Shown here: positions 16,096-18,880 of the stretch, piece after piece
Layout: every line of letters begins with the position of its first letter
Position numbering within the stretch: the stretch's first letter is position 1
Notes under the pieces: model-generated
The model's input: the letters and a program-made list of their open reading frames with translations, nothing else
The model's database searches: none
Told to the model about the DNA's origin: nothing
Position numbers and translations under genes: made by a program
NCBI GenBank assembly: GCA_016869975.1
Contig: VGCZ01000003.1
Coordinates: 62,001 to 126,000, forward strand
Direction of reading: 5' to 3'
Length of the DNA stretch: 64,000 nt
Source: Alphaproteobacteria bacterium
GTDB taxonomy: Bacteria; Pseudomonadota; Alphaproteobacteria; Reyranellales; Reyranellaceae

Positions 16096-16308
16096 TCGCT
16101 GTCCGCATCACGTCGGCGCGAGCTAGCCGTCGCGCGGACGTGACCCGTCGTGTTGTCCCTCTCCCGCGAGTGTGACGTCCATCACGCGTCCATTGCTCGT
16201 ATGCCTGATGCCAACGATGGATCGCGGTGCTCAATAGCCCTTCGCTATCGCGCTCCGTGATACCCAGGCGTTACAGGCGCGATGATGCGCTGAACGAGGG
16301 AGACGATC

Positions 16309-16479
16309 ATGAGCGAAGGACGTTTGATGACGATGGCGCGCGCGCTGCTGTGCGCCGGCATGATGGTGGCGATGGTGGCCCCGGCGACGCGCGCCGACGA
16401 CGGCGTGGCCGAGGAGGCGCGGATCGAGCGACCGGCGCCGGTCCTCGAGCAGTGCCCCTGCCCACCGCCGCCGCGCTGA
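16309..16479 (+). CDS. Small exported Cys/Pro-rich peptide
   Basis: A 56-residue product between the two MaoC genes. It has a clear signal peptide (ARALLCAGMMVAMVAPATRA, predicted cut before DDG) and a short mature part of about 27 residues, acidic and ending EQCPCPPPPR. GAGGGAG just upstream of ATG 16309 supports translation. The adjacent Cys pair could bind metal or form a disulfide. No family is recognised. It is short enough to be missed by automatic calling. Confidence 0.55.
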   Translation: MSEGRLMTMARALLCAGMMVAMVAPATRADDGVAEEARIERPAPVLEQCPCPPPPR

Positions 16480-16646
16480 TCAGCTCGCCGGCGTTCCGCA
16501 TCGCGCGCTTCCCCGGTCGCGCGATGCGGTTGCCGGTTGCGCTGGGTCGCGCGTCGCGCATGATGGTGCGATGTCGTCGTCCCTTCATGTCGCGAAGATG
16601 AAAGTCGCCCGCGCCCGCGATCCCTGGCGGTCGGCGGGCTGATCGC

Positions 16647-17966
16647 ATGCCCGGTCCCTTGCGCTATTGGGAAGACCTCGAGCTCGGCCGCGTCTATCCG
16701 ATCGGCGTCCACGACTTCACCGAGGAGGCGATCGTCGCCTTCGCCACGCGCTTCGATCCGCAAGGCTTCCACATTGATCGCGCCGCGGCCGAGGCCTCGA
16801 TGTTCGGCGGTATCATCGCCAGCGGCTGGCACATCTGCTCGGCGATGATGCGCCTGCTGGTCGACAATTTCGGCCATCCCGAGACCAGCATGGGCGGTGC
16901 CGGCCTGCACGATATACGCTGGCATTTGCCGGTGCGGCCCGGCGACCGGTTGACCGCCAGCGTCAAGATCGTCGAGAAGAAGCCCCTGTCGAGCCGCGCC
17001 GATGTCGGCCTCGTGTTCAAGAACTACGAGGCCTTCAACCAGCGCGGCGAGCTGGCCCTGACCATGCAGGGTCGCGAATTCATCCGCCGCAAGCCGGCGG
17101 GCGCGGGGGAGGATGGTATGGCTCAGGCGGTGAAGGGCATCGACCACGCGGTCGTCGTGGTCGACGACATCGACCAGGCCGAGCGGGCGTGGAAGCGCCT
17201 GGGCTTCGCCCTGCAGCCGCGCGGTTTCCACACCAGGCTGGGCACCGCCAACCACCTGATGATCTTCGCCGACAATTATTTCGAGCTGCTGGGCGTCGTC
17301 GAGCCCAACGAGTTCAACGCCGAACGACGCTCGATGCTGAAGAACAAAGGCGAGGGGCTGGCCAACGCCGCCCTGCGTACCGACGGCGCCGACATCGCGC
17401 ACAAGGCGTGGACCGAGGCCGGGCTGCAGCCCGACGCCGTGCTCGATTTCGACCGCGAGGTCGAGATCTCCGGCCGTAAGGAGCGCGCCGCCTTCCGCAC
17501 CGTGCGCCTGGGTACCAGGCGCGCCAAGCTGCTGGGCTATTTCGTTTGTGAGCACCGCACGCCGCAATTCGTCTACCGGCCGGAATGGGCCAGGCATCCC
17601 AACGGCGTGAAGGCGCTGGCCGGCGCCGTGGTGATCGCCGAAGACCCGTTCCTCGACGAGGACTACGTCACGCGCGTCTTCGGTGCGTCGTCGGTCAAGC
17701 GCGAGGATGGCGACCTGCTGGTCGAAAGCGGCGGCACGCCGATCCGGTTCATGACGCGGGCGCGCTTCGAGGCGCGCCATCCCGGCGTGACGCCGGGCCG
17801 CGGCGGCGACCATCCGGCGTTGCTGCGTTTCGCGGTGGCCGATCCGATGGCGACGGCGGCGCTGCTGTCGGCGAAAGGGCTCGCCTACGCCCGCCCGGCC
17901 GATGGCCGCGTCATCGTATCGGCCAAGGACGCGACCGGCGTCTGCGTCGAGTTCGTGAAGGGCTGA
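16647..17966 (+). CDS. MaoC dehydratase fused in frame to VOC/glyoxalase-like protein
   Basis: The single 439-residue frame has two parts. Residues 1-150 are a MaoC protein (FDPQGFHIDRAAAEASMFGG), closely similar to paralogue 1 but without its stop. Residues 158-439 are a VOC-superfamily protein of the large glyoxalase-like type, starting MAQAVKGIDHAVVVVDDIDQ and containing NHLMIFADNYFELLGVV and a second half-domain ending FRFAVADP-like strands. At the junction, GGGGGAGG (17105-17112) precedes an internal ATG at 17118, exactly what a separate VOC gene would have. So both a fusion and an internally initiated VOC protein are likely made. Neighbouring thioesterases suggest acyl-CoA substrates. 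Confidence 0.85.
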   Translation: MPGPLRYWEDLELGRVYPIGVHDFTEEAIVAFATRFDPQGFHIDRAAAEASMFGGIIASGWHICSAMMRLLVDNFGHPETSMGGAGLHDIRWHLPVRPGDRLTASVKIVEKKPLSSRADVGLVFKNYEAFNQRGELALTMQGREFIRRKPAGAGEDGMAQAVKGIDHAVVVVDDIDQAERAWKRLGFALQPRGFHTRLGTANHLMIFADNYFELLGVVEPNEFNAERRSMLKNKGEGLANAALRTDGADIAHKAWTEAGLQPDAVLDFDREVEISGRKERAAFRTVRLGTRRAKLLGYFVCEHRTPQFVYRPEWARHPNGVKALAGAVVIAEDPFLDEDYVTRVFGASSVKREDGDLLVESGGTPIRFMTRARFEARHPGVTPGRGGDHPALLRFAVADPMATAALLSAKGLAYARPADGRVIVSAKDATGVCVEFVKG

Positions 17967-17972
17967 TACCCG

Positions 17973-18437
17973 ATGAACCTCGCGGTCCCGCCGGCGATCG
18001 ACCTCGCCGACGTCAAGTCGTTCGGCTTCCTGACAACGGAGCATCTGCGCTTCGCCGATGTCGACGCCAATGGGCACATCAACAACGTGGCCTTCGTGAC
18101 CTTCTTCGAGAACGCGCGCATCCGCTATCTCCAGGAGCAGCTTAAGGGCCTGCGCGTGCTGACCGGCGCCGAGGTCGTCGTGGCGCATATCGAGCTCGAT
18201 CTGAAGCGGCAGATGTTCTACCCCGGCACGATCCGCGCCGGCGCGCGGCTGATCGAGCTGCGCCGTTCCTCGCTGGTGATCGGCCAGGCGATCTTCGACC
18301 AGGAGGGACGCTGCGCCGCCACGGGCCACGTCGTGCTGGTGTCGATCGACAAGTCGAGCGGCCGCGGCCGGCCGATCGTGGACGAGGCGCGCGCGACGAT
18401 GACGCGCCTGATGGAAGCCCCCGGAGGCGTGTTGTGA
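17973..18437 (+). CDS. 4HBT/YbgC-like acyl-CoA thioesterase
   Basis: A 154-residue hotdog-fold protein. RFADVDANGHINNVAFVTFF is the 4-hydroxybenzoyl-CoA thioesterase signature, with the catalytic Asp in DVDANGH followed by the long helix. VVVAHIELDLKRQMFYPG is the second conserved strand pair. It presumably hydrolyses an acyl-CoA made or used by the neighbouring MaoC proteins. The stop overlaps the next start (GTGA). Confidence 0.9.
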   Translation: MNLAVPPAIDLADVKSFGFLTTEHLRFADVDANGHINNVAFVTFFENARIRYLQEQLKGLRVLTGAEVVVAHIELDLKRQMFYPGTIRAGARLIELRRSSLVIGQAIFDQEGRCAATGHVVLVSIDKSSGRGRPIVDEARATMTRLMEAPGGVL

Positions 18438-18880
18438 AGAGCATCCCCGAGGGTTTCGTCGAGTTTCCGGTGCTCGATCGCTTCGTTCAGCTCTCCGGCC
18501 CGCTGATGATGAAGCCGGAGCCCGACGGCCTGCGCGTCGGATTGCTGCTCGACGACCGCCACGGCAATCCGATGGGCGTCGCGCATGGCGGGCTGCTGGT
18601 CACTGTCGCCGACATGGTGATGGGCGTCGGCAGCGGCTTCGCCACCGGCATGCACTGGCCGCACCCGACCATCACCTTGAACTGCGACTTCGTGCGCGGC
18701 GCCAAGCTCGGCCACTGGCTCGAGGGCAAGGCCATCGTCACGCGGCGCACGATCAATTTCTGCTTCTGCCGCACCGAGCTGGTGTGCGACGGCGAGATCG
18801 TGCTCAACGCGTCGGGCGTGTTCCGGGTGCCCGACCTCGATCGCGTTCCTGAGCAGTTCCGGCCGCCGCGATCGACATGA
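18434..18880 (+). CDS. PaaI-family acyl-CoA thioesterase
   Basis: A 148-residue hotdog thioesterase of the PaaI type: GNPMGVAHGGLLVTVADMVM holds the HGG motif and the catalytic Asp/Glu region on the central helix, followed by TITLNCDFVRGA. It differs from its upstream neighbour, which is of the 4HBT/YbgC type, so the operon carries two thioesterase types. GTG start overlaps the previous stop, and its own stop overlaps the aldo/keto reductase start. Confidence 0.88.
   Translation: MKSIPEGFVEFPVLDRFVQLSGPLMMKPEPDGLRVGLLLDDRHGNPMGVAHGGLLVTVADMVMGVGSGFATGMHWPHPTITLNCDFVRGAKLGHWLEGKAIVTRRTINFCFCRTELVCDGEIVLNASGVFRVPDLDRVPEQFRPPRST

Follow-up and report, generated by a model that had tools for sequence, protein, structure and literature searches.

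A MaoC-VOC gene fusion in Reyranellaceae that appears to retain the start site of the absorbed VOC gene

Results

A stop-free MaoC-VOC gene with a candidate internal start

In the window, a 64,000-nucleotide stretch of DNA from a member of the Reyranellaceae, a MaoC hydratase-type gene reads without interruption into a VOC gene. Comparison with related genomes indicates that this gene, MaoC2-VOC, is a real, derived and conserved fusion. We consider it rather probable that the fusion is lineage-specific and has retained the VOC start, its mRNA most likely yielding both a 439-residue fusion protein and a free 282-residue VOC protein. The features of the locus are listed in Table 1.

Table 1. Features of the MaoC2-VOC locus (window coordinates)
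Feature	Position	Strand	Remarks
MaoC1, unfused MaoC paralogue, 151 aa	15640..16095	+	PF01575, E 1.5e-22; ends RRRPAS*, matching the fusion linker position
MaoC2-VOC fusion gene	16647..17966	+	Open, stop-free frame of 439 codons (439 aa); orthologues in G001-G004 full length
MaoC2 hydratase-type hot-dog domain	16647..17099 (residues 1-151)	+	Pfam; Asp37/His42 putative dyad; 3exz fold match
Linker GAGEDG	17100..17117 (residues 152-157)	+	Six residues; predicted disordered
Internal Shine-Dalgarno GGGGGAGG	17105..17112	+	In the core, the Gly154 codon is GGR in 5/5 orthologues
Internal in-frame ATG, Met158	17118..17120	+	In relatives, the true start of VOC aligns here; spacer 5 nt
VOC part	17118..17966	+	282 aa if translated alone; predicted four-module HPPD-like fold; His167, Glu213, His303 and His389 conserved
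4HBT_2 thioesterase	17973..18437	+	Pfam; found behind VOC in a Vineibacter-type relative as well
4HBT hot-dog thioesterase	18434..18880	+	Pfam

A preliminary description of this DNA had noted that no stop separates the two parts, that the linker is only about seven residues long, that a Shine-Dalgarno (SD) sequence and an ATG mark the VOC start, and that products of 439 and 282 residues could result. All of this is borne out by the frame, with a linker of six residues. The MaoC part ends RRKPA at residue 151, Met158 follows the six linker residues, and the joint reads AAG CCG GCG (MaoC end), GGC GCG GGG GAG GAT GGT (linker), ATG GCT (VOC). The same description had the tandem paralogue MaoC1 ending at the corresponding position; it ends one residue past the matching point.

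Pfam matches were found in both parts: PF01575 (MaoC_dehydratas) at residues 24-115 (E 7.6e-16, 58.3 bits against a cut-off of 27) and PF13468 (Glyoxalase_3) at residues 165-334 (E 2.4e-30, 106.3 bits against a cut-off of 25.1). An AlphaFold model of the fusion (mean pLDDT 85.8) has two confident domains joined by a disordered linker, residues 152-160, where the pLDDT falls below 50. The nearest solved structure to the MaoC half is 3exz (E 4.4e-25), which also matches structurally with a Z score of 19.7. The modelled VOC half (residues 158-439) consists of paired beta-alpha-beta3 modules and matches HPPD (1t47, Z 21.6) and 3p8a (Z 21.4) with at most 17% identity on structural alignment; HPPD was absent from the matches of a PDB sequence search. 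Folded alone and without an alignment, the VOC half gave an uninformative model (pLDDT 43).

Asp37 and His42 are invariant in 16/16 aligned MaoC sequences, fused and free. They form an Asp-x4-His pair, which we take to be the catalytic dyad of the hydratase-2 type. His167, Glu213, His303 and His389 are likewise invariant in all 12 aligned VOC sequences. The conserved His and Glu residues of the VOC part lie mostly in its N-terminal half, whereas the metal site of HPPD lies in the C-terminal module pair. We do not classify the VOC part as an HPPD. The VOC half had dN/dS values of 0.10-0.31, compared with 0.13-0.43 in the MaoC2 half and 0.11-0.43 in MaoC1. These values and residues indicate that both fused halves are under purifying selection, with catalytic-type residues kept. 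The MaoC half would hydrate an enoyl-CoA-type thioester, and the VOC half would carry out an isomerase, epimerase or lyase step.

The fusion is found in two genera and probably followed a tandem duplication

The full-length, stop-free fusion is present in all four genomes of the same genus that we examined (identities of 100, 95, 89 and 87%, the window's own included), and the one genome examined from a neighbouring genus has the same unbroken fusion at 70% identity. In the rest of the Reyranellaceae that have the locus, MaoC and VOC are separate adjacent matches, nearly always with a visible MaoC stop, and the VOC protein is 51-69% identical to that of the window. The comparison of orthologous loci for a stop near position 17097, proposed in the preliminary description, thus found none in the five fused assemblies and a MaoC stop in nearly all relatives with separate genes. 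Outside this lineage, no full-length match to the fusion was found in 385 genomes across the class when four candidates per genome were scored. Two metagenome bins, filed under the names Caenispirillum bisanense and Asaia bogorensis (L051 and L063), also carry a Reyranellaceae-type locus; the former falls among genomes of the window's family, and the labels are probably wrong.

All five fusion genomes have two MaoC genes, the unfused MaoC1 lying upstream, and the others have one at the locus. In a maximum-likelihood tree, all Reyranellales MaoC copies formed one clade (99/96), within which MaoC1 (98/90) and the fused MaoC2 (100/99) formed clades that each hold both genera. Both the duplication and the fusion are therefore older than the separation of the two genera, and the fused MaoC represents the second copy produced by a tandem duplication particular to this lineage. 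The tree does not fix how MaoC1, MaoC2 and Reyranella branch relative to one another. Simple inheritance of the pair from MaoC genes arranged in tandem in other alphaproteobacteria was considered and rejected, since those pairs fall outside the Reyranellales clade.

The junctions of the unfused relatives bear on how the genes were joined. A typical Reyranella junction reads GGAGGCCGGC ATG A; most members of this genus have the TGA stop of MaoC overlapping the start codon of VOC, with the VOC SD sequence inside the MaoC codons for RRRPA. In two Vineibacter-type loci, 10 and 46 nt separate the MaoC stop from the VOC start, both out of frame. As the MaoC stop and the VOC start of these relatives are in different frames, stop loss would probably have had to be accompanied by a frame-changing indel or by a recombination joint, unless the direct ancestor had in-frame spacing. 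The earlier proposal of two genes fused by stop loss is supported in two respects, a real fusion and an internal start that seems to have been kept in usable form, but stop loss alone is not obviously enough.

Between MaoC1 and the fusion, about 550 bases (16096-16640) are inserted in the window's genome and in one other fusion genome only (G001; 80% identical, single copy). The remaining three fusion genomes lack the insert, and there MaoC1 and the fusion nearly touch. The sequence GCTGATCGC stands at both edges of the insert in the window, resembling a target duplication, and is not clean in G001. Within the insert, a 56-codon ORF (16309-16479) is preceded by GAGGGAG and has a signal-peptide-like start and a CPCPPPPR tail. 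The ORF has the same length and a similar sequence in G001, and no PHROG match was found.

The VOC start signal is conserved inside the fused genes

An in-frame start preceded by an SD sequence at a spacing of about 5-8 nt is conserved in all five orthologues. For each Met codon, we computed how strongly the preceding 20 nt pair with the anti-SD tail of 16S rRNA (CACCUCCU). At Met158 the pairing was -10.8 (window), -8.6, -7.1, -6.8 and -7.4 kcal/mol, the strongest of any internal Met in each gene; the 45 other internal Mets of the five genes had a mean of -2.8 and a minimum of -6.5 kcal/mol. The fused genes' own starts pair more weakly (-5.5, -5.3, -5.5, -1.7 and -6.2 kcal/mol). The long ORFs of the window, which served as a local background, contain 391 internal ATGs, of which 0.5% reached -10.8 and 3.8% reached -7 kcal/mol. 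The starts of 36 free VOC genes of relatives had a mean of -8.4 kcal/mol, compared with -2.4 for the internal Mets of those genes. From these data the internal start is probably used, giving free VOC by internal initiation, a comparison made on five orthologues that share ancestry and with tests chosen after the site was seen. Counting against such use, the predicted local mRNA fold partly pairs the SD sequence and is no weaker than shuffles; the partial pairing fits coupling to upstream translation but is no proof of it.

An alternative is that the 439-residue bifunctional protein is the gene's sole product, with the internal SD sequence and ATG as relics of the once separate VOC gene. The conservation of the fusion and the constraint on both halves agree with this. 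So does synonymous resampling with the linker residues fixed, in which an equally strong site arose with P = 0.016, 0.075, 0.147, 0.54 and 0.38; the result is non-significant in three to four of the five genes, and the window's own gene alone is unusual, so part of the signal could come from the linker amino acids. However, with a dS of about 0.6-1.1 between the genera, a variable linker should lose relics, and yet the ATG and the GGR core persist in 5/5 genes while the other linker positions change, and the pairing remains comparable to that at functional VOC starts. We therefore regard relics as the less likely reading, if one worth keeping in mind.

It is also conceivable that selection acted on the protein, for a flexible linker rich in Gly and Glu, with the SD-like string as a by-product and the ATG encoding an ordinary Met. 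Gly-Glu and Gly-Val linkers do favour SD-like DNA, and the linker amino acids with random synonymous codons give a mean pairing of -4.6 to -7.8. Against this, the five linkers (GAGEDG, GAGESE, GAGENG, GEGVRS and TEGVAT) have only Gly154 invariant, followed by an invariant ATG that coincides with the VOC start of relatives. Gly154 with the next base is encoded as GGGG or GGAG in every orthologue, thereby avoiding GGC, which accounts for 83% of Gly codons (GGA and GGG together, 10%); among 35 invariant Gly columns, Gly154 is the sole one that is GGR in all five genes. These observations make a by-product improbable. Loss of a stop or a shift of the frame through faulty sequencing or assembly, the caveat of the preliminary description, is possible for any single genome with nothing further in its favour, and is excluded for practical purposes by an unbroken architecture in five assemblies, that is, in four besides the window's own, one of them at 70% identity.

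Discussion

The favoured reading, a fusion with a retained VOC start, implies the following history. In the common ancestor of the two Reyranellaceae genera, a single MaoC gene before VOC would have duplicated. The downstream copy would then have lost its stop and come into the VOC frame. The result would be a bifunctional protein, MaoC2-VOC, whose halves are joined by a short flexible linker, with the former ribosome-binding site and ATG of VOC kept inside the fused gene. One mRNA would thus most likely be read twice, from 16647 and from 17118, and internal initiation would probably be helped by ribosomes crossing and unfolding the region. Whether selection keeps the start of the absorbed gene is, in our judgement, evenly balanced; if it does, the cell would have a tethered hydratase-VOC enzyme plus surplus free VOC, tuned by the stronger internal ribosome-binding site.

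If the internal start is used, MaoC2-VOC would work like known internal-start genes. CcmM, CheA (CheA-L/CheA-S), IF2 and ClpA each give two products from one gene via an in-frame internal start (PMC11005335), the second being an N-terminally truncated form of the long protein, as would be the case here. The products of those genes have been demonstrated, whereas those of MaoC2-VOC are predicted from sequence; its internal start, unlike theirs, can be traced to a once separate gene. Similarly, Cas11 is made from an internal start in cas8 and cas10d genes (PMC11899642), where a large protein is accompanied by its C-terminal part, translated from an internal ATG behind an SD-like site, but those products are subunits of CRISPR complexes and not metabolic enzymes. 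PaaZ (PDB 6jql) also has a MaoC-type hydratase as half of a bifunctional protein; its partner is an aldehyde dehydrogenase and its MaoC lies on the C-terminal side. The closest counterpart is the separate MaoC-VOC pair of Reyranella and Vineibacter, with orthologous domains in the same order and a thioesterase gene after them, but as two genes in differing frames with one MaoC copy. We found no relevant report of a MaoC-VOC fusion or of such an operon in the literature.

Dual products, if real, would add a neat example, though one with precedents, of a single gene yielding two proteins. Internal starts that give a C-terminal domain are known, but their origin is seldom clear. Here the unfused relatives, a fusion placed in a phylogeny and five orthologues together point to a start signal surviving gene fusion. 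The locus allows one to ask whether continued production of the single protein buffers gene fusions.

The surroundings of the fusion are those of a locus that likely belongs to a CoA-thioester pathway. In a Vineibacter-type relative, VOC is followed by the two 4HBT thioesterase types found behind the window's fusion, and these thioesterases may release the product after the MaoC and VOC steps. The gene upstream of MaoC varies across loci (HAD, FAD oxidoreductase or alpha/beta hydrolase). A scan of the + strand upstream of the fusion, limited to the sigma-70 consensus, found no promoter-like site. In other alphaproteobacteria (L087-L092 and L101), MaoC genes, often in tandem pairs, lie near an opposite-strand VOC homologue, which suggests a functional link between MaoC and VOC beyond this lineage.
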